From: a virus
IMG/VR virus record: IMGVR_UViG_3300005518_000039
Location: 1-25,331 of that record
Strand: one strand, 5' to 3'
DNA length: 25,331 nt
In this document: positions 12,105 through 25,331 of the stretch, in pieces
Layout: each line of letters starts with the position of its first letter
Position numbering within the stretch: position 1 is the stretch's first letter
Translations under genes and position numbers: made by a program
Notes under the pieces: generated by a model
Databases searched by the model: none
Told to the model about the DNA's origin: nothing
The model's input: only the letters and a program-made list of their open reading frames with translations

Positions 12105-13778
12105 ATGCCCAACCTGACGCAGTACCTGGCCAATCCCGATCTCTACCCCACCCGGACCGGCGAGCCCACCGGCACAGTGCCGATCCCGGTGGAACCGAGT
12201 CCAACGCTGAATCCCGCTGTCGGGCAACAGTTCGGCGCCGGGCTGGTCGGCGTCGGGCAGAGTCTGGAGGGCCTGGCCAGCAGTCTCAACCAGCGGCAAG
12301 AACTGGCCATGCGCCAGGCCAAAGCCCGCAATACGCTTCTGGCGCAGGATGCCCTGAATACCTATACCGTTGATCTCGATACGTTTGGTGCCCAGGACCA
12401 GCAGAACCCGGACTATACCAACCATGCGCAGCGGGTATTGGACTATGGGCGGCAGCGTATCAGTGAACTGGCACAGCCGATGTCGCCTGGGGCGCGCGAG
12501 TTGTTTCACGTCCATGCCGGGCAGCGCCTGGCCGAAGTCAACCGCCAGGCGTTGACGTTTGCCCAGCAGACCATGCTGGCGCAGGTGCCCCGGATCGCCG
12601 ACCAGACCGATCAGGCGTATATCAACGGCGCCCTGGGAGCCACGGATGACGCCGACCTGGCGCAGAAGACCGTGCAGTATATGCGCAGTATCCAGGGCCT
12701 GGTGGACGCCGGACTGATGTACCAGCCGGAAGCCACCCAGCGCATGCAGAAAGCCCAGGAGGCGGTGGAGACCAAGGGCATGCTGCTCAAGATCGACACG
12801 GACCCTGCGGGCAGCCTGCTGCATCTGGTGGGCCTGGCGCAGGGGCAGCCCGGCCAGCCGGGGTATCCCGTGCCGCCTGAGAGCCATCTGGCGCCGCTGA
12901 TCGAGCATGCCCAGCAGCAACTGCGGAGCCAGGTCACCCTGACCGAAGCCCAGCAGGCCGCACAGCACCGGGTGTTGCAGGACAGCCAGGGCCGGCGGGC
13001 CTCGGAGTATCGGATGCAGATTTATAAAGTGGGGGCCACGATCCCCGAGCTGGTAGGCCTGCTGGACCCGATCAACACCGACCGCCAGACGCAGGCCCTG
13101 GGAGAAGCCGACCACAAAGAGTTGCTGCAAGACGTCGAGCACGTTATGGAGAAAATCCGCAACGACGCCACTAAAGACGTGGACGTGCCGGCGATTGCCA
13201 AGGAAGCCCGCTTACGGATCGATATGGCCGAGACGCCGGAGCAACTGGACCGGGCGCGCGATTGGATTCGGAGTAATGCAGAGAGTTTAAGCTCCGGACG
13301 CTTTCAGGAGTTGCTGACGAAAGTCGAGACCAAACGCCAGGGCGATGATCCGCTGAACGACGATCAAGTCAAGGAGGGGCGGCGGATTATTCTCGCCGGG
13401 GCCTTTCCGGGGGGGATTGTCCCCGCGGTCCTGGACAAGATCGACGCCGGCATCAAGAGCCGCCTCAGTGATGCGGTAGACGCGTATTTCCAGAGTATGC
13501 GCGATGTCCACGACAAGGAAGGCGTCACGGCGATGCGCAGCAAGGCGATTCCCACGGCGCGGACCCTGCGGGATGCCTATTTCCGCGATGAGGGCGACGC
13601 CCGCCGGGCGGCGTTGCCCCCGGGGATCAAAGACGCCAAGACCTACGAGGCAGCTTTGCGGGGCCTGGCGGCAATGCCTGAACTGCCCTATGCCGTGAAG
13701 CGGCAGATTTATCAGCGTATCAAAGAGGCAGGGCTGCCGCATGAAACGCCGGCGCCCGCCGCAGGAAAGACACCGTAA
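12105..13778 (+). CDS. Internal virion protein in gp15 position
   Basis: A 557-residue helical protein. The N-terminus has a Pro-rich lead (about 1-45), then long amphipathic helices rich in Gln, Ala and Leu. I cannot point to a catalytic motif. In T7-like phages the gene between gp14 and the transglycosylase encodes gp15, which forms the periplasmic tunnel with gp16; length (T7 gp15 is about 750) and composition are compatible but do not prove it. ATG at 12105 follows GGAGGAG. The stop overlaps the next ATG (TAATG). Confidence 0.65.
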   Translation: MPNLTQYLANPDLYPTRTGEPTGTVPIPVEPSPTLNPAVGQQFGAGLVGVGQSLEGLASSLNQRQELAMRQAKARNTLLAQDALNTYTVDLDTFGAQDQQNPDYTNHAQRVLDYGRQRISELAQPMSPGARELFHVHAGQRLAEVNRQALTFAQQTMLAQVPRIADQTDQAYINGALGATDDADLAQKTVQYMRSIQGLVDAGLMYQPEATQRMQKAQEAVETKGMLLKIDTDPAGSLLHLVGLAQGQPGQPGYPVPPESHLAPLIEHAQQQLRSQVTLTEAQQAAQHRVLQDSQGRRASEYRMQIYKVGATIPELVGLLDPINTDRQTQALGEADHKELLQDVEHVMEKIRNDATKDVDVPAIAKEARLRIDMAETPEQLDRARDWIRSNAESLSSGRFQELLTKVETKRQGDDPLNDDQVKEGRRIILAGAFPGGIVPAVLDKIDAGIKSRLSDAVDAYFQSMRDVHDKEGVTAMRSKAIPTARTLRDAYFRDEGDARRAALPPGIKDAKTYEAALRGLAAMPELPYAVKRQIYQRIKEAGLPHETPAPAAGKTP

Positions 13779-16700
13779 TGCCACTGATTCCCGCCACGAT
13801 TCTCGCCCAGGTGGAAGCCGAAGCGCAGCGCCAAGGGGTGGACCCTGCCCTGGCCCGCGCCGTGGCGCAGGCCGAATCGGGCGGTAATCCCCTGGCGACC
13901 TCGCCGAAAGGCGCCAGAGGGGTCATGCAGTTGATGCCAGGGACCGCTGAGCGTTATGGCGTCTCCGATGCCTACGATCCGGGCGAGAACATCCGCGGGG
14001 GCGTGGCCTATCTCAAAGACCTGGGCACGCTGTTCCCCGGCAACGCGGCGCATCAGATTGCGGCGTACAACGCTGGCGAAGGGGCGGTGCAGGCGTATCA
14101 TGGCATTCCGCCATACCGCGAAACACGCACCTATGTGCAGCGGGTGTTGCAGTATATGGGTCTGACGCCAGGCAGTGCCGAGGCTGCTGGGCGCGATCCG
14201 GGGATGGAAGCCGACCTGGCCCGCGCCCAGCACCAGGACGATCTCAGCGGCGCCGTGGTGCAGCAATATCAGCAACGCCAGGATACGGCCATGGAAGCGG
14301 ATATTGCCCGCGCTCAGGGACCGGCGCCCGCCCCGGCGCCAGGGGATGCCGCCATGCAGGCTGATCTGGCGCAGGCGCAGGCCAGGACGCCAGCCGCGCC
14401 AGGGACACCGGCGACGGCGATGGACACCGAGTTCCAGCAGGCCGCCAGCACGCCACCGGCCGCCAGCACGCCACCGGCCGCCAGCACGCCACCGGCTGCC
14501 CCGGCGGCAGCGGCAGCAACAGTGCCGCGCCACTGGCTGATGCCTGAGGGTAGTACGCTGGGGCAGGCCGTAGGGCAGACCGCCCTCCAGGTGGTCGGGG
14601 GAGCCCGCGATGCCTTCGTCCATACCATGCAGTCACTCAATCTCCTCGGAGACTGGATGCGGGAGCACGGCATCGGGCCAGGGGAGACATTGACGATCCC
14701 GGTGCCGGAGGTGCCGCATACCAACACCACGGCGGGCGATGTCATCCGGGGCGCGACACAGTTCCTCAGTGTCTTTGTGCCGGTAGCCGGCGAACTGCGG
14801 GCCGTCGGGCTGGCCGGGCATGTCGCACAGGGCCTCGCGGCCGGCGCGCTCACCGATTTTGCGGCCTTTAGCGCGCAGGAGCCGCGCTTAGCTGATGCGT
14901 TGAACCAGCTCCCGGCGCCGCTGAAAAATCCCGTCACAACGTATCTGGCGCATCAGCCAGGAGACACCGAGGCCACGGGCAGGTTGAAGCGCAGCCTGGA
15001 AGGCCTGGGACTCGGGGTACTGACTATGGGGGTGTTCCATGCGGTGGAGAGTCTGTGGGGCCTCCGTACGGCCCGCCAGGCGGCGACGACAGAAATCCAG
15101 CAGGTTGCAGGGCAGCAGGGCGTTGCCCTGACAGCACCGGAGATCGACGCGGCCATGCAGGCCGAAATGGCGGCCGCGCAGGCCCGCAAAGCCGCCGATC
15201 TGACGCAAGCGCAGCAGACGCTGGCGGCGATCCAGGCCGGCGATGCCGAGGTGACCCGGGCGCAACTGACCCGGGCGCAGGCCGTTATCGCCGGCGATGG
15301 CACGGTGGTGCTGGGGCGGGGGCAGCAACCCTTACGCTTTACCAGCGAGCAAGAAGCCGCCACGCATCTGCTGACGCAGCGGGTGGCACGCATCACGGAG
15401 CAGGAGTATTACACGCCGCTCAATGCCTTACGACGGGCGATGCAGGACCGCGAGCCGGCCCCCAACCTGGTAGGCAGTACCGATGTCGGTTTGCAGGGCC
15501 AGCAACTCCAGCCGCTCACGCCGGCGGCCCCCGAGGTGCCGGTAGAAGGGGGCGCGTCTGCGGTGCCCGGTGTGCCACCGAGTGTGGCCCCCCCGGGCCT
15601 GATTGCTCGACGGCTGGCGCCAGCACCCGAGCCGGCGGCGCCGTTGCCCCCGCCGGTCTCTCCGAGTTTCCCGACCGATATCCACCTGGCCGGCGACCAG
15701 ATCCAGGGGCTTCTGTCTCGTGCAGAGGCCACGCCGGCAGCGCCGGCCATGGGGAGTGCCAGCCAGGGCCTGCCAGCGGCCCCGGAGGTGGGAGTGCCCC
15801 GGCGCCTGGCGCGGGCACTGGAACCCGAGCCGCTGCCCACGAGTCAGCCGCTGCCCCAGGGCGCCCTACGCCAGCTCGTGGATGCCCGGACTCCGGACCC
15901 GCTGCCAACGTTTCACGCCTTGCCGGCAGCGCAACTGCGGCAACTGCTCCAGGACCGGGCGCCGATTCCTCTCTCGCCCTTCGTGACGCTGGAAGTCGCC
16001 CCGACTGGCGTACTGCCGGAGGCTGCCAGCCTGGCTGCCGCTGGCGCCGAAGCCGCCGCGCCTCCCGGGCGCTATCTGCATATCAATTTTGGGCAGATGG
16101 CCACCGCCGACGATGTGCGCAGCACCCTGGCCACGGTGGCCGAAATGACCCGCTTGCAGGCCGACACGCAGCGCCGGGGTACCCAGACGATTGCCGATAT
16201 GGTGGCCGCGTCCCAGCAATCGCGCTATCGCCGGCTGGCAGACATTCTGCAGATTCAGCCCGGCACGGTGCTGAAAGCCGAAGATACCTACGCCGTGATG
16301 CAAACCTGGATTACGTCTGCGACCCGGCTGGCCGAACTGCAACAGCGTCTTCTGGCCGGTGAAGACGTGGCTGACGACTATCTGAAACAGTGGATTCTGA
16401 CCGCCAATATCTCGCCGATTGCCCAGGGGGTCCTCAGTGAACCTGGCCGTACGTTGCGGATGCTGGGGGAAGAAATCCCGGCCACGACGCGGGAGTTTCT
16501 GAATGCCTTTACCCAGAAGATTGCCACCAGCCAGGACGCCATAGCGCCGATACGTCCCCCGGCGCTGCCCCCCGCCGCCGAGGCCCCTGGCGGTCTGCGG
16601 CCTGGGCAGCTTGCGCCCCTGCCGACTCCGCCTGAGGTCGGGCTCCCGACCCCGCTACGGCTGGACTTCCCGCCGGGCGAGCGTCCCGGGGTGCCCGTGG

Positions 16701-18724
16701 GGGAGCCGACGGCGACAGCGGTCCCGGTACAGGACGCCCTCGATAAAGCCTTACGGGTGCGGGTCGCGCAGAAGCTGGCTGGCCATCTGGATATGTTGAC
16801 CGAAGACCAGATGGCGCGCTTTCTCCGCGAAGCCCAGCAGACCAACCAGCCGGGGCTGTTCAATGAAATCCTGTATGGCTCGCTGTTTAGCTTCCCGGCC
16901 ACCTGGGTCGGCAATGGCCTCGATGGCGCGTACCACACGCTCTGGGCGGTGCCTGAGCGCTATATGGCGGCGGGCATGGGGGATATTGCGCTCCAGGAAG
17001 GCAATCAGTTGCTCTATGGCATGGCGCAGGGGCTCAAGGAGTCGTGGCAATACGCCGCCCGGGCCATGGAGACCGGCGTCTCAGCCTTTGGGCAGGAAGG
17101 CAAAGTGCCGGTCGCCCGACTCCCGGCGTTCACCTCGGCAGGCCTGGGCTTGCCGCAGGATATCGCCTCGCAGACGCTGGGGCAGCATATTCTGGCTGAT
17201 TATGTCGATGCCCTGGGGGCGGTGCTGCGCTTTGGCCCGCGGGTGTTGCTGGCCACGGATGAGTTTTTCCATGCGCTGAATTTCCGCATGCAACTGCACG
17301 CGCTGGCCTTTCGCGAAGCAGCCCAGACCGGGAAGCGAGGACCCGACCTGCGCCAGGCGATCAGTAAGCTGCTGGATAGCCCGAGCGAGAGCATGCTGGC
17401 CGGCGCACGGAGTTTCGCTGAGGAACAGACGCTCAAACAGCCCTTAGACGAAGGCGGCTTTGTGCTGCTGAGCGGCCTCACGGCCAAGCTGGGCGCGCTG
17501 ACCCAGGAACACCCGGTGGCCAAGCTGCTCTTCCCGGTGCTGAATGCGCCGTTTAACGCCTTCCGACAATTCGGGGAACGTTCCCCGCTCGGGCTCACGT
17601 CCCCGACGATCCTGAAGCAACTCTTTACCCGGGAAGGCCCGGAGGCGGCGCTGGCGCGGGCCAAGTTCGGCTTAGGCGCGATGACGCTCTTGACCTTTGG
17701 CATCCTGGCGCAGGAAGGCATTCTCCGGGGCAAAGCGCCGGAAGGGCAGCAGGCCACCTGGGCACGGCTGGGGATTCAGGAGAACTCGCTGAATCTGGGG
17801 GGGCATTCGCTCTCGTACAATCGCCTGGATGCCATCGGCATGCCGATGGGCCTGGCCGCCGATCTGGTGACCGTGCTCAACCATATCCCCACCAGTACGG
17901 CGACGGAAGTGGTCGGGGGCATTATCGCTGCCTTCTGGGACAACGCCATGAGTCGTCAGTGGCTGCAATCGACGGCGGACGTGGTAGACGCTATCAGCGG
18001 CGGGGTGGGCGAGACGCAGAAAGAGACCGGCGATGATGCCGCCCGGTGGCTGCGGCAACGCATTCCCAGCCTGTTTGTCCCGAGCGCGGTCGGGCAAATG
18101 GCGCGGGCCATTGACCCGGCGCAGCACGAAGTACGCAACGTACTCGATGCCTTTCTGGTACGGATTCCTGGCCTCTCGGAAGGTGTACCGGTGGCCAAAG
18201 ATCGGTGGGGGCAACCGCGCGAACATCCCACCCCCTGGGGCATGCAGGTGCTCTCGCCTATCCTGAGCCAGGAGCACACGCCCAACCCGGTGGATTTAGA
18301 GCTTGAACGTCTGGGCGTGGTGGTCCCTCAGGTGCCGCGCACGATCAATCTGCCCCATGCTGACCGCACGCACCCCTGGCCGGTGGAATTAAGCCCTGAG
18401 CAATACGGCCGGTTGCAGGAGTTGAGTGCGGGGATTGGGCTTAAAGGCGTTGACCGTCCGCTCAGGGAGGAACTGGCCCGGCTGATCGCGCTGCCGGGCT
18501 ACCAGGACCCGCGGCTTAGCGATGGCCCCAGTGGCGGGCGGGCTACGCTGCTCAAGGCGGTCATTCAGCACTATGACGCCGCCGGGATCGCACAACTCCA
18601 GGCCGAAGACCCCCAGGTGCGAGCCTTAATGACGGCACGCGATATCGCCTCGCAGGCGGTGCAGTTGCGGCAGACGCCGGCGCCGCTGCAACAGGTCTAT
18701 GAACGGCTAGGGATTGGGCGGTGA
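13778..18724 (+). CDS. Giant internal virion protein with lytic transglycosylase domain (gp16-like)
   Basis: The largest gene here: 1648 residues. Residues 1-125 form an SLT-type transglycosylase that would cut the peptidoglycan during DNA entry. The motifs are AESGGNP (catalytic Glu about 33), GVMQLMPGTAERYGV, IAAYNAGEGAV and IPPYRETRTYVQRV. Residues about 145-245 are low complexity with M-E/Q-A-D-L/I-A-R/Q-A-Q repeats and a TPPAAS repeat. A hydrophobic region (RGATQFLSVFVPVAGELRAV, about 322 onward), then Pro/Ala-rich linkers (about 560-760), and a C-terminal half with LYGSLFSFPATWVGN (about 1032) and KFGLGAMTLLTFGILAQEGI (about 1295) follow the plan of other podovirus injection proteins. 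The 3' end overlaps the antisense gene by 18 bases. Confidence 0.92.
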   Translation: MPLIPATILAQVEAEAQRQGVDPALARAVAQAESGGNPLATSPKGARGVMQLMPGTAERYGVSDAYDPGENIRGGVAYLKDLGTLFPGNAAHQIAAYNAGEGAVQAYHGIPPYRETRTYVQRVLQYMGLTPGSAEAAGRDPGMEADLARAQHQDDLSGAVVQQYQQRQDTAMEADIARAQGPAPAPAPGDAAMQADLAQAQARTPAAPGTPATAMDTEFQQAASTPPAASTPPAASTPPAAPAAAAATVPRHWLMPEGSTLGQAVGQTALQVVGGARDAFVHTMQSLNLLGDWMREHGIGPGETLTIPVPEVPHTNTTAGDVIRGATQFLSVFVPVAGELRAVGLAGHVAQGLAAGALTDFAAFSAQEPRLADALNQLPAPLKNPVTTYLAHQPGDTEATGRLKRSLEGLGLGVLTMGVFHAVESLWGLRTARQAATTEIQQVAGQQGVALTAPEIDAAMQAEMAAAQARKAADLTQAQQTLAAIQAGDAEVTRAQLTRAQAVIAGDGTVVLGRGQQPLRFTSEQEAATHLLTQRVARITEQEYYTPLNALRRAMQDREPAPNLVGSTDVGLQGQQLQPLTPAAPEVPVEGGASAVPGVPPSVAPPGLIARRLAPAPEPAAPLPPPVSPSFPTDIHLAGDQIQGLLSRAEATPAAPAMGSASQGLPAAPEVGVPRRLARALEPEPLPTSQPLPQGALRQLVDARTPDPLPTFHALPAAQLRQLLQDRAPIPLSPFVTLEVAPTGVLPEAASLAAAGAEAAAPPGRYLHINFGQMATADDVRSTLATVAEMTRLQADTQRRGTQTIADMVAASQQSRYRRLADILQIQPGTVLKAEDTYAVMQTWITSATRLAELQQRLLAGEDVADDYLKQWILTANISPIAQGVLSEPGRTLRMLGEEIPATTREFLNAFTQKIATSQDAIAPIRPPALPPAAEAPGGLRPGQLAPLPTPPEVGLPTPLRLDFPPGERPGVPVGEPTATAVPVQDALDKALRVRVAQKLAGHLDMLTEDQMARFLREAQQTNQPGLFNEILYGSLFSFPATWVGNGLDGAYHTLWAVPERYMAAGMGDIALQEGNQLLYGMAQGLKESWQYAARAMETGVSAFGQEGKVPVARLPAFTSAGLGLPQDIASQTLGQHILADYVDALGAVLRFGPRVLLATDEFFHALNFRMQLHALAFREAAQTGKRGPDLRQAISKLLDSPSESMLAGARSFAEEQTLKQPLDEGGFVLLSGLTAKLGALTQEHPVAKLLFPVLNAPFNAFRQFGERSPLGLTSPTILKQLFTREGPEAALARAKFGLGAMTLLTFGILAQEGILRGKAPEGQQATWARLGIQENSLNLGGHSLSYNRLDAIGMPMGLAADLVTVLNHIPTSTATEVVGGIIAAFWDNAMSRQWLQSTADVVDAISGGVGETQKETGDDAARWLRQRIPSLFVPSAVGQMARAIDPAQHEVRNVLDAFLVRIPGLSEGVPVAKDRWGQPREHPTPWGMQVLSPILSQEHTPNPVDLELERLGVVVPQVPRTINLPHADRTHPWPVELSPEQYGRLQELSAGIGLKGVDRPLREELARLIALPGYQDPRLSDGPSGGRATLLKAVIQHYDAAGIAQLQAEDPQVRALMTARDIASQAVQLRQTPAPLQQVYERLGIGR
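14441..14494 (+). repeat. Three exact 18-bp tandem repeats
   Basis: The unit GCCGCCAGCACGCCACCG occurs three times without change, in frame, giving AASTPP three times inside the linker of the transglycosylase. Perfect identity suggests recent slippage or unequal exchange, so copy number may vary among relatives. Confidence 0.95.
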
Positions 18725-19069
18725 GCCATGCAGATGCCGACGACACCAGGCGACGTGATGGGTGGCCAGCGACAGGACAAACGCTGGGAAGAGATAGCAG
18801 CCGGCGAGGACCCAGACCTGGAGATTGAGGGGACTATGCCACCAGGAGACCCAGACATCCGGATGCTCGAGCACCTGCGCGCTGGCCACGCGGGGCGCTT
18901 TGTCGAGCGCGCCTTCATGCAGCGCTGCGAGGCTGGCGTGGACGGTGGCAATAAGGGGTTCCATCGGTACCGGGGCGGCCTGCCATTGGGCCAGATGGAT
19001 AAGGAGCCCCAGGACCCCGAGTCCCCAGGCCAGCATGGCCAGACCATGCAACCGGCGTACAGCCGTCAT
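18707..19069 (-). CDS. Antisense small two-helix membrane protein
   Basis: The only well-supported minus-strand gene. The ATG (19067-19069 on the plus strand) has a perfect AGGAGG five bases upstream. The 120-residue product has a basic start (MTAVRRLHG), a hydrophobic helix (about 10-27, with LAMLAWGLGVLGLLIHLAQW) and a central soluble loop with several Trp. A second hydrophobic helix follows (about 84-103, LQVWVLAGCYLFPAFVLSLA), then a basic tail (CRRHLHG). This suggests an inner-membrane protein with both ends in the cytoplasm. Codon use is strongly GC3 (CTG, GTC, GCC), like neighbouring genes. I recognise no family; it could be a moron such as a superinfection-exclusion or lysis-timing protein. 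The overlapping plus-strand frame (18728-19129) has poorer codon use and is rejected. Confidence 0.8.
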   Translation of the reverse strand: MTAVRRLHGLAMLAWGLGVLGLLIHLAQWQAAPVPMEPLIATVHASLAALHEGALDKAPRVASAQVLEHPDVWVSWWHSPLNLQVWVLAGCYLFPAFVLSLATHHVAWCRRHLHGSPPNP

Positions 19070-19074
19070 CGACG

Positions 19075-19080
19075 CCTCCT
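19075..19080 (-). promoter_or_regulatory. Ribosome binding site of the antisense gene
   Basis: Read on the minus strand this is AGGAGG, five bases before the ATG. It fixes the start of the antisense membrane-protein gene and is one of the best sites in the window. Confidence 0.85.
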
Positions 19081-19115
19081 GCGGATACGTGTGTGTTGCG
19101 AGCGTACAGAAGGAA

Positions 19116-19143
19116 AGTATACCTCATGAGCGTGGCAAGCCAA
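19116..19143 (-). promoter_or_regulatory. Sigma70-type promoter for the antisense gene
   Basis: On the minus strand: TTGGCT (19143-19138), a 16-base spacer, then TATACT (19121-19116). The boxes match the consensus at four and five of six bases. Initiation would fall near 19109, giving a leader of about 40 bases. The promoter overlaps the start codon and ribosome binding site of the tail fibre gene on the other strand. Confidence 0.55.
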
Positions 19144-20397
19144 CCAGGCTGGATTCGGCATACCGGCGATGGCGCCAGCACGACGTTCCCCTATGACTTC
19201 TTGCTGCTCGCCGCCTCTGAGCTGGAAGTCTATCTCGACGGCATGGTGACCACGGCCTACAACTTGACCGGGCTGGGCAACCCGGCGGGCGGCCTGGTGG
19301 TGTTTTATCTGGCCCCGGCGCTGAGCGTGGCCATTGTCTTTCGCCGCGTCACGGCGACCAGTCAGAATGTCACCCTGGCGACGGCGGGCCTGCTGCCGAC
19401 CCGGACCCTGGAAGCGGTATTTGACCGGCTGACACTGCTCACGCAGGACCTGCACGAAATCTGCAGCCGTGTTCCCACCCTGGCGCCGTGGGTCAAGGAT
19501 GCCCTGCGCAACCTGGAGTTTCCACGCCCTGGCATCGTGCCTCTGCTCGGCTGGAATGCCCAGGGGACGGCGCTGACCCTCTACCCGCCCACGGTGATCT
19601 ATCAGGTGCTCGAGCCGCCCATCGGCCACACCTTCGTGCGGACGGAGGTGCTGTTCACCGCTGCCCACTGGGGCGGGCGCGATGAGATGCGTGCCGCCGG
19701 TGCGCTACCGGCTAACAGTCTGATCCTGGGCGTGCCGGTGAGTGTCGAGCAGGGCTTTGGCAACAGCAATGGCCTGACGGGCCTGCTGGTGGGCGATGAC
19801 GAAGTCGGAGACCGCTGGACGGCGACGCCGCTGGGGCTGGAGATGGGACTCACCACCGATGAGGGCTGGTTCTCGGGGGAGGCACAGGTCCGCTGCAAGA
19901 CGGCCCGCGATCTGGTCATTCGTGGCGTCGATGGCGCCTTTGATGGCTTTGGCGTCCTCAAAGCCGTGATTCACTCCCGGCAACTCTCGGTGCTGACCGG
20001 CATCACCATCACGCCGGCAGCGGGGCAGCGCTATTTCAGTGCCTCCTATACCCTGGCGGCGGCAGATTTCGTCGGGCAGCCGGAGATGCGGGCGGTGGCG
20101 GCGCTGCCCCCCAATACGCTGATTCTGGGCGTGCCCGTTCTCGTGGAGAGCAATTTTGGCAGCAGTGGCGGAGCGACGGCGTTGCTGGTGGGCGACGGCC
20201 TTGTCGTGGATCGCTGGAGCCGCGAACCGCTCAGCCTGATGAGTGGCACGACGACGGGCGACGGGGATTTCAGCGCCCAGAGCGAAGTGCGGCAAAACAG
20301 TGCCGGTGATGTGGTGATCCGTGCCGTTGGCGGCGTCTTCGATCCGGATGGGGTCATCACGGTGGTGATCCATTATCGCACCCTGAGCACGAGTTAG
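19126..20397 (+). CDS. Tail fibre protein with T7-type N-terminal domain
   Basis: A 423-residue fibre. The N-terminal domain (about 1-125) follows T7 gp17, which anchors the fibre to the nozzle: GWIRHTGDGASTTFPYDFLL, then LEVYLDG, YNLTG, VFRRVTATSQ and a helix LEAVFDRLTLLTQDLHE. The C-terminal 240 residues contain two copies of a domain of about 110 residues (see findings). They begin at about residues 170 and 303 and each contain LILGVPV, LLVG and a final VIH-x-R-x-L-S. These are likely the receptor-binding or trimerising part. ATG at 19126 was chosen over an in-frame TTG/ATG at 19093 because AGAAGGAAAG lies just upstream and the family start fits. Confidence 0.86.
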   Translation: MSVASQPGWIRHTGDGASTTFPYDFLLLAASELEVYLDGMVTTAYNLTGLGNPAGGLVVFYLAPALSVAIVFRRVTATSQNVTLATAGLLPTRTLEAVFDRLTLLTQDLHEICSRVPTLAPWVKDALRNLEFPRPGIVPLLGWNAQGTALTLYPPTVIYQVLEPPIGHTFVRTEVLFTAAHWGGRDEMRAAGALPANSLILGVPVSVEQGFGNSNGLTGLLVGDDEVGDRWTATPLGLEMGLTTDEGWFSGEAQVRCKTARDLVIRGVDGAFDGFGVLKAVIHSRQLSVLTGITITPAAGQRYFSASYTLAAADFVGQPEMRAVAALPPNTLILGVPVLVESNFGSSGGATALLVGDGLVVDRWSREPLSLMSGTTTGDGDFSAQSEVRQNSAGDVVIRAVGGVFDPDGVITVVIHYRTLSTS

Positions 20398-20404
20398 GAG
20401 GCGT

Positions 20405-20677
20405 ATGCGTCTCGTAGGACTGTGTATGGTGCTCTGTCTGTGGCTCCCCCTGGCCGCACTGGCGGCGGACGCGACGTGCACGCAGCAACTTGCGGAGCAG
20501 CAAATCCTGGTGCAGGTGCTGCGGCAACAACGCGAGCAGACGGAGCAGGACGTGGCCAAGATCGTGGCCCTGCTCAACACCACCCGCCAGGAACTGGCCA
20601 CGGCGCAACAGGCGGCGGCGAAACCGCCCGGAGAGGCGCCCACGGGCGAGGCGCCGAAGGAACCACCGCAGCGATGA
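20405..20677 (+). CDS. Exported coiled-coil protein
   Basis: A 90-residue protein with a clear Sec signal: basic MR, hydrophobic core (LVGLCMVLCLWLPLAALA) and an AxA cut near residue 21. The mature part has one Cys and a heptad-like coiled coil (QQLAEQQILVQVLRQQREQ, about 27-62), then a flexible Pro/Glu/Gly tail. ATG at 20405 follows TTAGGAGG. The last four bases (ATGA) overlap the start of the next, also exported, fibre-like gene. The layout recalls small periplasmic spanin-like or assembly-aid proteins, but I recognise no family. Confidence 0.72.
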   Translation: MRLVGLCMVLCLWLPLAALAADATCTQQLAEQQILVQVLRQQREQTEQDVAKIVALLNTTRQELATAQQAAAKPPGEAPTGEAPKEPPQR

Positions 20678-23600
20678 AACGGGTTGTGGTGGCCTTCGGG
20701 CTCCTGCTGAGCCTGGCGGGCCTGGTGCAGGCACAATTGACCCAGAAGCCGGTGACCGAAGTCTATGACTTCAAGAACGGCTTCAAAATCCGGGGCGTGC
20801 CGTTCACCGGGACGGGCAGTACGCCACTCACGACGATTGTGCCCTCGACGCTGGGCGGGATGGGGACGGATATCCACCTGGTCAGTGCCGGGCATTACCC
20901 CAAGGCGACCGGGGCGAATCCGGCCCTGTTTATCGCCTCGACGCTCGGTGCGGCGGGCACCGGGGCCTGTAGCAACACGTTCGTCAGTGGGCTGAATGGC
21001 GATGCCCCCCCGACCTGTGGCAATACCCTGGGCGCGCTGGGCCTCAATACCAGTGTGGGGGCGGCGGGGACGCTCCGCAGTGTCCTGGGCGCCAACGGGG
21101 TGACCGGACTCGAGATGCAGCGGGCCACCGATACGGCGCCCACCGGAGCGTTTCTGGACTTCCTGGCGGCGAATCGGGCCAGTGCCTTTCGCGTGGACAC
21201 GACCGGGGCGATTACTGTGGGCAGTTACGCCGGCGTGCCGATTCCCCTGGCCTATCTGAGCGGGCAGCTTGTGCCGTCGCTGGGTGGCCTGGTCTACACC
21301 GATGCCAATGGTCTGGCTCTTTTACCAGCACCAGGCACCAGTGGTCTGATCCTGCAATCCATCGCCGGGGATGTGCCCTCGTACTCGACGGCGATCTACC
21401 CGATTACGATCACGGCGGATCATGCCCTGGCGTCAGTAACCGATGACATTATCACGCCTCTGGCCCTGACGGATTGCCCGGATACCGCCGGGCAGCACTG
21501 GAATTACACCCATGCCAGCGGCATTACCTGCGGCACGTCGGGGGCGACGGCGGGGACGGTCACACATACCGGCACGTTGACGCCTCTGGCTATCCTGCTG
21601 GGCAATGGGGGCGCCGACCTGACCGCTCTGGCCGGCAATACGACCACGACGCGACGCTTTCTCCAGCAGACAGGCGATGGCGCCGCCATCAGTAGCACCT
21701 CGCTGGTCACCCTGGCGGATAGCGATATCCCCGCGGCCCTGACCGGGAAAACCTACAACGCTCTGACGCTGACTGCGCAGACAACGGGTTTCACCGTCGC
21801 CGGGGGCACGACCAGTAAGACACTCACGGTCGATGCCGATATCAGTACGGCCAATGTGGCCCTGCTCACAGCGGCCAACACCTTCAGTAGCGCCACGGGG
21901 CAGAGCATGAAGAAGCTGCTGCTGCCAGGCAGTAGTTCCGGCACGCTCACCGTCCAGGCCCCGGCGGCGGCGGGCTCGAATACGTTGACTCTGCCGGGGG
22001 GCACGACCGATTTCTCCGCCACGGGTGGGACGTCGCAAGTCGTGAAGCAGACCAGTGTCGGCGGCGCCTTCACCGTGGCACGGCTGGCCTGTGCAGACTT
22101 GAGCGATGCAGGCGCCGGCTGTAGCGGGGCGGCGGGTGGGGTCACTTCGCTGACTGGTACGGCGAATCAGGTCCTTGTCTCCGCCAGTACGGGCGCGATT
22201 ACGCTCAGCGCGCCGCAAAATCTCGATACGGCGGCGGCCTTTCGCATCGGCTCGCTGGGCGTCAATCAGGCGGCCAGTACGGCGGGCTCGGTGGCCCTGA
22301 TTGCCAGCACCAATGGCATGACGATGTTGTCCCTGCAACGGTTTACCGATACGTCTCCGTCCGGGAGCTTTGCGAATTTTAAGACGGCGGGCGGTAGCAC
22401 GCTTTTCAGCGTGGATATTACCGGCGCGGTGACCGGCCAGAAGTTCAACAAGCTGACCCTGACGGCACCGGCGACCGGCGCCACGTTGACCCTGGCCGAT
22501 GGCAAAACATTCACCGTCAGCAACACGCTGACCTTCACGGGCACGGATAGCAGCAGCGTGGCCTTTGGCGCGGGCGGTACCGTGGCCTATACCGGCGTAG
22601 ACGTGAATACCAGCGGGCAGGTGACGGCCACGCATCTAGCGAGTGCCCTCCCCGTCGCCCAGGGCGGCACCGGGCTTACCAGCGGCACCTCGGGGGGCAT
22701 TCTGGCCTATACCGCCTCAGGCACGCTGGCCAGTTCGGGCGTCCTGGCGGCGAACCTGCCGGTGATCGGCGGCGGCGCCGGGGTAGCCCCCAGCAGCGGC
22801 ACGCGTTCGGGCAACACGACCACGTTTGCGACCACCTCGGGCACGCTTACCAGCGGCAACTGCGCCAAGTTCGACGCCAGCGGTAACGTTGTGGACAACG
22901 GTAGCACCTGTGGCAGCGGCGGCGGCAACGTCTCGAATACCGGCACGCCCACCAGTGGACAGGCAGCCGAGTGGACCAGCGCCACGGTGATTCAGGGCGT
23001 GGCGGTGACGGGCACCGGCAGTTATGCCAAGGCGACGAGCCCGGCCCTGGTGACGCCCACGTTTCTGTTGGCGAGCCCGCCCAGTGGCAACACCATCACG
23101 GTCCAGACGCAGACCAGTAATCATGCGTCCTTTCTCTACCTGGCCGCTAAGGGCACCATGACGGCGGGCAATGCCTCAGAAATAGACATCTACAGTACCG
23201 ACGTGGTGGCCGATGCGACTAATACGGAACAGCTCAGCGTAGGCAAGACGGTCAATGATTTTGGCTATATCCAGACCTATGCTGGCGGCACCGGGGCGGT
23301 ACGGAATTTCATGATCGGCCCGGCGGAGGGGCTGACCCAGAGCCACGGCCTCTACATGCCGGTCACCAAGTCGGTGACCAATAACAGTGCGGCATCCATT
23401 GCCAACCTGACCCTGGCGAGCAATTCCAGTGCGGCGGTGATCGTGAATTACAGTGTGCAGGTCATTGACGCCTCGAACCATATTCAAAACGAAGTGGGCA
23501 GCGTGCTGTGCAATGTGGCCAATAGCAACGGCACGATTACTCTGGGCGGCACCAATGGCTGCGTGGTGGCAAAAAGTCAGCCGATTATCTCCGCCTCGGG

Positions 23601-23751
23601 GGGCACCCTGACCGTGACATGGACTCTGACGGCGGCGAATCCGAGTGTGCTCAAAGTGAATGCCAATAGTTCTTTAACGCCCAGTGCGAATTATCCCAAG
23701 GTGACCACGACCCTGCACAGTTTGACCGGGCAGGCGATCACGCTGCAATAA
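20674..23751 (+). CDS. Large exported fibre-like protein with signal peptide
   Basis: A 1025-residue, Thr/Ser/Gly/Ala-rich, beta-type protein. It starts MKRVVVAFGLLLSLAGLVQA, a textbook Sec signal with an AxA site near residue 20. The body is repetitive. A module with LQRFTDTSPSGSFANF occurs twice (about residues 120-185 and 525-590), and a YN/FN-x-LTLTA motif follows each. Near residue 658 is LPVAQGGTGLTSGTSGG, a motif common in phage tail fibres. Shortly after comes SGNCAKFDASGNVVDNGSTC. The C-terminal 230 residues look like a compact beta domain. ATG at 20674 (ATGA overlap) was chosen; the frame extends upstream but that part lies in the previous gene. Fibre-like content with a signal peptide is unusual. 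Confidence 0.8.
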   Translation: MKRVVVAFGLLLSLAGLVQAQLTQKPVTEVYDFKNGFKIRGVPFTGTGSTPLTTIVPSTLGGMGTDIHLVSAGHYPKATGANPALFIASTLGAAGTGACSNTFVSGLNGDAPPTCGNTLGALGLNTSVGAAGTLRSVLGANGVTGLEMQRATDTAPTGAFLDFLAANRASAFRVDTTGAITVGSYAGVPIPLAYLSGQLVPSLGGLVYTDANGLALLPAPGTSGLILQSIAGDVPSYSTAIYPITITADHALASVTDDIITPLALTDCPDTAGQHWNYTHASGITCGTSGATAGTVTHTGTLTPLAILLGNGGADLTALAGNTTTTRRFLQQTGDGAAISSTSLVTLADSDIPAALTGKTYNALTLTAQTTGFTVAGGTTSKTLTVDADISTANVALLTAANTFSSATGQSMKKLLLPGSSSGTLTVQAPAAAGSNTLTLPGGTTDFSATGGTSQVVKQTSVGGAFTVARLACADLSDAGAGCSGAAGGVTSLTGTANQVLVSASTGAITLSAPQNLDTAAAFRIGSLGVNQAASTAGSVALIASTNGMTMLSLQRFTDTSPSGSFANFKTAGGSTLFSVDITGAVTGQKFNKLTLTAPATGATLTLADGKTFTVSNTLTFTGTDSSSVAFGAGGTVAYTGVDVNTSGQVTATHLASALPVAQGGTGLTSGTSGGILAYTASGTLASSGVLAANLPVIGGGAGVAPSSGTRSGNTTTFATTSGTLTSGNCAKFDASGNVVDNGSTCGSGGGNVSNTGTPTSGQAAEWTSATVIQGVAVTGTGSYAKATSPALVTPTFLLASPPSGNTITVQTQTSNHASFLYLAAKGTMTAGNASEIDIYSTDVVADATNTEQLSVGKTVNDFGYIQTYAGGTGAVRNFMIGPAEGLTQSHGLYMPVTKSVTNNSAASIANLTLASNSSAAVIVNYSVQVIDASNHIQNEVGSVLCNVANSNGTITLGGTNGCVVAKSQPIISASGGTLTVTWTLTAANPSVLKVNANSSLTPSANYPKVTTTLHSLTGQAITLQ

Positions 23752-23771
23752 CCCGTACAGGAAGGAAAGCT

Positions 23772-24290
23772 ATGCGCTACAGCAGACTCGCGGTCCTTGT
23801 CCTCCTCTGGAGTGGCCTGCTGCCTCTGGCGGGGTGTCAGGCGCTGCGCCAGGCGGAACCGGGGATCGAACAACAGGTGATTGCGCACCGGGCGCTGATT
23901 GAAAGCGTGGTGCGCCTGGAGACGGCGCATCTGGTCGAGCAGCATCCAGGCTGGGCGCCGGCTCTGGTGACCTGGGGCCGCAGTGTGCAGGCCAGCGTGC
24001 AACCACAGGGGATGGACCTGGTGCAACTCGAGCCAGCGCTCATTGCCACCATCGACACCTATAACGTGTGGAATTCGCCGCAGCAGCGCCTTCTGGCCCG
24101 CGCTGCTATTCAGTCGATGCTGGACACGGCCTCTGCGGAACTGGCGCGAATGGAACCCCACCCGGGCGGCCTGTTGCTGACTGTGGGCGAAGTCGGGGGG
24201 TGGATTGCCTCGACGGCACAACTGGCGCTGCCGCACGATCTACAAAGCCAGACACGCCTCGATACGGCCCGTGCCGATAGGAGCGAATAA
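23772..24290 (+). CDS. Phage-encoded lipoprotein
   Basis: A 172-residue protein with a lipoprotein signal: MRYSRLAVLVLLWSGLLPLA then GC, lipobox LPLAGC with Cys22. After processing it would be anchored to a membrane by lipid. Residue +2 is Gln, not Asp, so outer-membrane sorting is expected in a Gram-negative host. The mature part is mostly helical, with no catalytic motif seen. It is too long and not Pro-rich enough for a typical o-spanin. Phage lipoproteins of this kind can block superinfection (T5 Llp, TP-J34 Ltp), but that role here is inference. ATG at 23772 follows AGGAAGGAAAG. Confidence 0.78.
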   Translation: MRYSRLAVLVLLWSGLLPLAGCQALRQAEPGIEQQVIAHRALIESVVRLETAHLVEQHPGWAPALVTWGRSVQASVQPQGMDLVQLEPALIATIDTYNVWNSPQQRLLARAAIQSMLDTASAELARMEPHPGGLLLTVGEVGGWIASTAQLALPHDLQSQTRLDTARADRSE

Positions 24291-24518
24291 ATGGCTGTTA
24301 CCTGGGAAGACCTGTTGCCAGCCCTGTTGCAGATGCTCGAGATTGGCCTGCATGCCGTGAGTGCTCGCGAGGCTTCGGCAGCGCAGCCGGTCACCACGGG
24401 GCATGTGGCCACCCTGGCGGAGCCGCATCAAGATGCCTTGCTGCACCTGGCGGATACGGTGCTGGCGCATCAGGCGGGTATCGTTGACCCGGAGCCACCG
24501 ATGCCGGCGAGCCCGTGA
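24291..24518 (+). CDS. Small hypothetical protein before holin-like gene
   Basis: A 75-residue protein whose ATG directly follows the previous TAA, with AGGAG about ten bases upstream. The first 25 residues form an amphipathic/hydrophobic helix (LLPALLQMLEIGLHAVS); the rest is acidic with several His. No export signal, no recognised family. It sits between a lipoprotein and a holin-like gene, so a link to lysis is possible but not shown. Confidence 0.62.
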   Translation: MAVTWEDLLPALLQMLEIGLHAVSAREASAAQPVTTGHVATLAEPHQDALLHLADTVLAHQAGIVDPEPPMPASP

Positions 24519-24528
24519 TAGGAGTCGC

Positions 24529-24756
24529 ATGGAAACCAAGCCGGCCTATCAGACGACCGAATTCTATCTGACCCTGTTCAGCAACCTGGCGACGCTGGTG
24601 ACGACGATTGCTGGTGTGTTACCGCCGAAGTATGCCGTCCCGACGCTGGCGGCGGTCAATATCGGCTACAGCATCGCGCGGGGCATTGCAAAAAATGGCA
24701 TCCCCCACGGCGAGCCACCGGCGCTGGTAGTGACTGACATCCAGACGCATCCGTAG
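24529..24756 (+). CDS. Holin-like small membrane protein
   Basis: A 75-residue protein beginning METKPAYQTTEFYLTLFSNL. Two hydrophobic segments (about 13-30 and 34-53) are separated by a Pro-Pro-Lys turn; a polar tail follows. The KPxYxTTEFxLTL start is one I associate with small holin-like proteins of many phages. A holin would form the inner-membrane lesion that times lysis. No endolysin is visible in the window, so the partner would have to lie further on. ATG at 24529 follows AGGAG; the longer open frame upstream overlaps the previous gene. Confidence 0.68.
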   Translation: METKPAYQTTEFYLTLFSNLATLVTTIAGVLPPKYAVPTLAAVNIGYSIARGIAKNGIPHGEPPALVVTDIQTHP

Positions 24757-24767
24757 AAGGAGCGAAC

Positions 24768-25085
24768 ATGCGGAGACGACTCCAGGGAGCCTTGTGGCTG
24801 GCCGTGCTGGCCTGGAGCAGTACGGTCCTGGCTGCGACCTATACCTATACCACGACGCCTCGTGAAGAGGCGGCATTGCAAATAGTCGTCAACCAGACCG
24901 GCGCCGCAGACCGGGCGGCGGCCTTTCAGGGTTTGATGAGTCAGCGGCTCGACGATCTGTTGCAACGAGCGATCAGTACCATGAAGAAAACCCTCGATGC
25001 CCAGCAAGATGACTGCTTGAGCCAGGGCAAAACGTGGTCGATTACGCAGGGCGCCGGCGGACTCCCACAGGGCGTCTGTCAATAA
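24768..25085 (+). CDS. Small exported protein with a phage-type helical domain
   Basis: A 105-residue protein. MRRRLQGALWLAVLAWSSTVLA is a clear Sec signal (three Arg, hydrophobic core, VLA cut). The mature start TYTYTTTPREEAALQIVV, followed by a helix ending RLDDLLQRAI, resembles a small phage domain usually seen without a signal. Two Cys lie near the C-terminus (DDCLSQGK and QGVCQ) and could form a disulfide in the periplasm. ATG at 24768 has AGAAGGAG upstream. Function unknown. Confidence 0.7.
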   Translation: MRRRLQGALWLAVLAWSSTVLAATYTYTTTPREEAALQIVVNQTGAADRAAAFQGLMSQRLDDLLQRAISTMKKTLDAQQDDCLSQGKTWSITQGAGGLPQGVCQ

Positions 25086-25099
25086 AGGAGGAAACGCCT

Positions 25100-25331
25100 G
25101 TGAAGTGTCACCGCGCGTGGCTCCTGACTGCGCTGCTTGTCTGCGTGCTGGCTGCCCCAGCCTGGGCGACCACCTGGCATGTGGCCAAGACGGGCTCCGA
25201 TAGCGTCTCCTGTGCCACCGCTCAGACGTGGAGTACCGGGAGTCCGGGGAATGCCAAACTGACCATTAATAGCGCCCTGGGCTGCCTCACCAATGGCGTC
25301 GGGGGCACGCTGGTGCTGCATGCCGGGACGT
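25100..25331 (+). CDS. Exported beta-helix-like protein, cut by window end
   Basis: The start is GTG at 25100 with TAAAGGAGG eight bases upstream; the gene runs off the right edge. The 77 visible residues begin with a Sec signal (MKCHRAWLLTALLVCVLAAP, AWA cut) and continue TTWHVAKTGSDSVSCATAQT and LTINSALGCL, then GTLVLHAGT. The pattern W-x-V-x-x-x-GSDSxSC...TINxxLxCL...L-x-x-x-AGT is typical of the first coil of right-handed beta-helix (pectate-lyase-like) secreted proteins. In a phage this could be a polysaccharide-binding or degrading protein. Activity cannot be judged from this fragment. Confidence 0.72.
   Translation, partial: MKCHRAWLLTALLVCVLAAPAWATTWHVAKTGSDSVSCATAQTWSTGSPGNAKLTINSALGCLTNGVGGTLVLHAGT

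Follow-up and report, generated by a model that had tools for sequence, protein, structure and literature searches.

The 3' end of the late operon in a group of uncultured podoviruses appears to encode a block of receptor-binding proteins and tailspikes that are predicted to be Sec-exported and disulfide-bonded, together with a few small envelope proteins, and that would dock to virions at lysis; we give this reading a probability of roughly 0.45. Phage fibres and spikes are normally assembled in the cytoplasm. On their sequences, the block proteins are probably Sec-exported, disulfide-bonded fibres and spikes. Joining virions at lysis is their most likely fate; the chief alternative is that they act on the host surface.

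The DNA analysed, referred to here as the window, was IMG/VR record IMGVR_UViG_3300005518_000039 (25,331 bases). Its late genes are of podovirus type, coding for terminase subunits, portal, capsid, tail tubular proteins and internal virion proteins with a transglycosylase domain. Behind a fibre anchor lie seven tightly packed genes (20405-25331), spaced by 0-21 bases and with an ATGA overlap at 20674 (Table 1). The anchor region comprises residues 1-110 of the anchor protein, and its N-terminus is similar to those of phiV10 and other tail fibres. The knob domain is present twice in this protein and once in relatives G005 and G006, and is also duplicated by comparison with G011. A 120-aa ORF containing two hydrophobic segments (18707-19069, - strand) lies between the genes for the anchor and for the transglycosylase virion protein, antisense to the late operon; it looks more protein-like than the + strand ORF that overlaps it (18728-19129). 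An Rfam search of the window gave zero matches, and a scan for promoters and terminators found them at chance level.

Table 1. Fibre anchor and downstream block genes in the window; signals and cleavage sites are predictions.
Feature	Position	Strand	Basis
Fibre anchor, T7/epsilon15 type, 423 aa	19126..20397	+	phrog_1640, E 6e-14; signal absent
Exported protein, 90 aa, coiled-coil-like, Pro-rich end	20405..20677	+	Sec signal flagged (predicted)
Exported fibre-like protein, 1025 aa	20674..23751	+	Sec signal, cut AQA|Q or VQA|Q (predicted)
Lipoprotein, 172 aa	23772..24290	+	Lipobox LAG|C (predicted)
75-aa protein, signal absent	24291..24518	+	ORF with ribosome site within tight operon
75-aa moderately hydrophobic protein	24529..24756	+	Sequence
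Exported protein, 105 aa, two Cys	24768..25085	+	Sec signal flagged (predicted)
Beta-helix protein start, exported, 77 residues, truncated by contig end	25100..25331	+	Sec signal flagged (predicted)

Export signals were called with a custom heuristic that considers the charge of the n-region, the hydrophobic core, and the -3/-1 rule or a lipobox. It detected 9/9 textbook E. coli signals, and flagged 5/140 annotated genes of control phages and 1/102 shadow ORFs of the window, which sets its background at 1-4%; in pelagiphage HTVC010P there was a single weak call in 54 genes. The first-pass annotation had read Sec or lipoprotein signals at the start of five block genes (20405, 20674, 23772, 24768 and 25100), and the calibrated heuristic called these same five of the seven, compared with zero calls in the 18 genes spanning TerS to the anchor (Fisher P = 4e-4). 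The 1025-residue length it gave for the fibre is also correct with the start at 20674. The 24529 product, which it described as a small membrane protein, has two moderately hydrophobic stretches, but no segment reaches the 19-residue transmembrane threshold.

For the 20405 product family searches gave nothing below E 0.1, the lipoprotein had no relatives among isolate phages or viral contigs, the 24529 product had no family match and no relative in isolate phages, and the isolate-phage search likewise found none for the 24768 product. By shape the 20405 product is possibly spanin-like and the 24529 product possibly holin-like. The fibre matched no protein family and no isolate phage, and had no sequence relative in the PDB; some of its segments are common to signal-bearing fibres of other phages. 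The truncated 25100 product is 51% identical over 51 aa to an exported 1201-aa Beta_helix/NosD protein of relative G019.

Relatives were collected by capsid alignment. This gave 14 loci, all from one group of podoviruses; several loci duplicate the same phage. For these contigs, genes and start codons were taken from our own gene caller. When the same cluster was sought in these contigs, each one that extends past the fibre anchor (G006, G011, G012, G015 and G019) was found to continue into exported genes. G019 has a run of seven genes, six with clear signals, whose exported set includes a 710-aa pectate-lyase-type spike and the 1201-aa beta-helix protein, with 22 Cys; its 511-aa protein, read from the called start, lacks a clear signal. 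G011 has four exported genes consecutively. In G012 one directly follows the anchor and five more lie in a row ahead of the terminase; among these five, a 416-aa protein at 44941 looks signal-like but does not satisfy the cleavage rule. The G015 and G006 contigs end after the first exported gene. By hand tally, 22/27 block genes were flagged (23 with the signal-like G012 protein) compared with 1/112 core late genes, and the single flagged core gene, the G011 capsid protein, was judged a false call. Fisher's test on 23/27 against 1/112 gives 4e-21, a value that overstates the evidence because the genes are related. Chance or wrong start codons as the source of the signals were considered and rejected on the scorer controls and on the conservation over contigs.

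The exported beta-helix proteins of the relatives are 618-1201 aa long, and exported fibres or spikes of 500-1200 aa occur in several of the phages. Among related phages whose anchor and fibre form one protein, phiV10 and the uncultured Manatee Spring phage had signals on small proteins only. Three phages with different structural genes (G001, G002 and G004) have relatives of the fibre that start with a signal or signal-like stretch. The exported fibre of G023 (L094 5977-7767) is 81.5% identical over 65 residues to the window fibre (21913-22107); these two phages share few structural genes, and the match points to a recent exchange of fibre segments. Several signal-bearing genes, reaching 848 aa with 22 Cys, are also dispersed among the head and tail genes of G009 (L023-L024, IMGVR_UViG_2829035783_000001; contig 13673-24897). 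As this phage is unrelated, exported late proteins may be more widespread. A search of genome contigs for a host, using the capsid alignment and the N1 module described below, found no relative.

The layout of the exported proteins in the relatives resembles that of receptor-binding proteins, with a predicted signal, a constant N-terminal module and an exchangeable beta-helix or lectin C-terminus. Two such modules were recognised. N1 occupies about 150 residues after the signal in the first exported gene of G011, G015, G019 and G012, and also occurs in G023 and G024; it was not found in the window, whose sequence stops inside the block, and a search of isolate phages returned nothing. N2 is a short motif, [VI][YFW][DN]FxxG, lying 6-9 residues after the predicted cut in the window fibre (TEVYDFKNG) and in seven proteins of relatives; the model of one small N2 protein, G011_207, was too poor for use (pLDDT 48). 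The helix that follows N1 in G019 is 49% identical to the one that follows N2 in G011. C-terminal domains found in the relatives comprise pectate lyase, Laminin_G, beta-helix/NosD, G8 with CEMIP helix and Malectin, and BNR. Two exported helices match signal-less proteins of isolate phages, G012_657 matching Kuttervirus TSP2 (27% over 225 aa, E 4e-12) and G011_618 matching BcepMigl gp27 (E 4e-26), and tail and tail spike PHROGs are matched in the relatives as well.

A predicted model of N1 (pLDDT 75, pTM 0.71) looks like a virion docking domain. Its best structural matches were the cyanophage A-1(L) tail fibre, BPP-1 Mtd, the receptor-binding proteins of p2 and 1358, the HFTV1 fibre, TssK and SPP1 gp22, and the best 22 were all parts of tails, fibres, receptor-binding devices, baseplates or injection systems. 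The best Z was 8.5, although values of 7-8.5 can stem from a common arrangement, and the Foldseek E-values were weak (best 0.03). The p2 and 1358 proteins, Mtd, the A-1(L) fibre and TssK are assembled in the cytoplasm; N1 differs from those docking domains in that it follows a signal in five relatives and has a Cys pair.

The sixth occurrence of N1 is in G024 (L098, IMGVR_UViG_3300011434_000345), whose terminase is 49% identical to that of the window. Here N1 opens with a Met at the position where the other N1 proteins would be cleaved, a strong ribosome site lies ahead of it, and the upstream frames are without a signal. Both Cys are kept in all five signal-bearing versions and both are replaced in G024. 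Thus N1 exists either with signal and Cys pair or without both, the latter in a single case. The C-terminus of the G024 protein is a Peptidase_S74 chaperone domain, which is typical of virion fibres. The same contig carries a conjugative type IV secretion set (27838-36986; VirD4-, TrbE/VirB4-, TrbL/VirB6-, VirB8-, TrbI/VirB10- and CagX/VirB9-like genes) along with the phage terminase, virion genes and an integrase; the contig is either chimeric or represents a hybrid of phage and conjugative element. The VirB8-, CagX/VirB9- and TrbI/VirB10-like genes suggest that the host of this element is diderm.

Cysteine content followed the same division. Among group proteins of at least 280 aa, there were 1.13 Cys per 100 aa in exported proteins versus 0.32 in those not exported (Mann-Whitney P = 9e-5), and the Cys of exported proteins often sit close together in pairs. 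The ten Cys of the window fibre form five pairs whose members are 10-18 residues apart, and random placement of Cys brought all five pairs so close in 3.5e-5 of trials. We infer that these pairs form disulfide hairpins, the pattern being that expected of them. The exact hairpin GNCAKFDA is limited to contigs already in the set. The signal-less tailspike TSP2 of PM10 contains 10 Cys among its 724 residues, and so Cys content alone is no proof of export.

What would such proteins do once exported? An ordinary answer, that the block is a lysis cassette accompanied by hydrophobic N-termini that are not signals or by wrong starts, is very improbable. The scorer is a heuristic, and three products (20405, 23772 and 24529) could be spanin- or holin-like, but they are candidates by shape only, with family searches empty, and lysis genes do not explain exported fibres and spikes of 500-1200 aa (1025 aa in the window). 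Nor does this answer fit the 1-4% background of the scorer, the way Cys enrichment tracks the signals, or the start of the G024 N1 at the predicted cut. The earlier argument that spanins and exclusion lipoproteins do not suffice is supported: the block is a conserved set of exported proteins and is too large for either. Lysogenic conversion, with surface adhesins or enzymes made for lysogens and lying by chance behind the fibre anchor, we regard as improbable. Tyrosine integrases in G012 and G024 and an integrase-like fragment in G019 mean that at least some members look temperate; however, the block genes are co-directional with the late genes and tightly packed after them, the window offers no promoter signal of their own, and the C-terminal domains are tailspike-like.

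A stronger rival, possible if somewhat doubtful in our estimate, is that the exported proteins never enter virions and work at the infected cell's envelope or beyond it, masking or destroying receptors, attacking surface polysaccharide so that progeny are spared capture by debris, or blocking superinfection; their receptor-binding modules would then keep them on the host receptor or an envelope partner. Export before lysis is useful only if the proteins act there, and the block includes a predicted lipoprotein (23772). The surface-acting module proposed in the first-pass annotation gains from the relatives' folds that act on polysaccharide or bind carbohydrate (pectate-lyase type, Laminin_G, Malectin and beta-helix). 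There are also precedents: in phiV10 an O-antigen acetyltransferase conferring superinfection immunity adjoins the tail fibre, and the bacterium Pantoea stewartii exports an enzyme, WceF, that folds into a trimeric beta-helix resembling a tailspike (PMC7949094). Against this, the predicted N1 fold is of a virion-docking type and occurs without a signal in a Peptidase_S74 fibre, and there are two docking-type modules each with exchangeable domains, as in receptor-binding proteins borne on particles. The accompanying premise, that exported proteins would not be virion proteins, fares poorly given the receptor-binding layout, tailspike-homologous domains and docking-like N1 fold of the relatives.

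Docking to virions at lysis, the reading we favour, is in keeping with a docking-type N1 and with its relative joined to S74. In the cytoplasm the tail would bear a short anchor carrying knob domains. Signals that are later cleaved would take the long fibre and the beta-helix proteins across the inner membrane into the oxidising compartment, where their disulfides would form and where they would fold, perhaps as trimers. N1 in the relatives and N2 in the window fibre would dock these proteins to a common partner, with the C-terminal domains swapped between phages; that partner would be the virion tail, reached when lysis mixes cytoplasm and periplasm. Because P22 tailspikes can be added to completed particles in extracts, docking at a late stage and outside the cytoplasm is physically feasible. 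On the other side, the anchor already ends in knobs and the exported spikes may be dispensable to the virion, and since lysis sets all of these proteins free, only folding or a role before lysis would call for export. On this view, offered only tentatively, virion assembly would be spread over two compartments: Sec would export the receptor-binding fibres and spikes, their disulfides would form in the periplasm, and at lysis they would be joined to completed particles.

The closest known systems are T7 gp17, the tail fibres of epsilon15 and phiV10, and Kuttervirus TSP2, which are alike in being late genes after internal virion proteins and in their modular domain exchange; the podovirus fibres share anchor homology with the window and TSP2 shares beta-helix homology with the relatives. 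In phiV10, however, anchor and spike are one cytoplasmic protein, whereas here the anchor is separate and spikes and fibre have predicted export signals. The block departs from classic receptor-binding proteins and tailspikes in these signals, predicted on five window proteins and on most block proteins of the relatives. WceF differs in being encoded in a bacterial exopolysaccharide cluster rather than by a phage beside virion genes, and in having a Tat signal. Signal-bearing endolysins and spanins are likewise made late by phages and rely on export by the host (PMC8878798), but they are single lysis genes and do not form a series of proteins of fibre and spike type. In the literature searched, which left preprints and most subscription journals outside, no title or abstract described exported tail fibres or spikes.

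The assembly of tailed phages is regarded as purely cytoplasmic. A conserved set of spike- and fibre-like proteins with export signals and paired Cys would mean either that part of virion assembly takes place outside the cytoplasm or that the phage runs a programme at the host surface before lysis. For annotation, the block counsels caution, as identity as a receptor-binding protein is compatible with a signal peptide.
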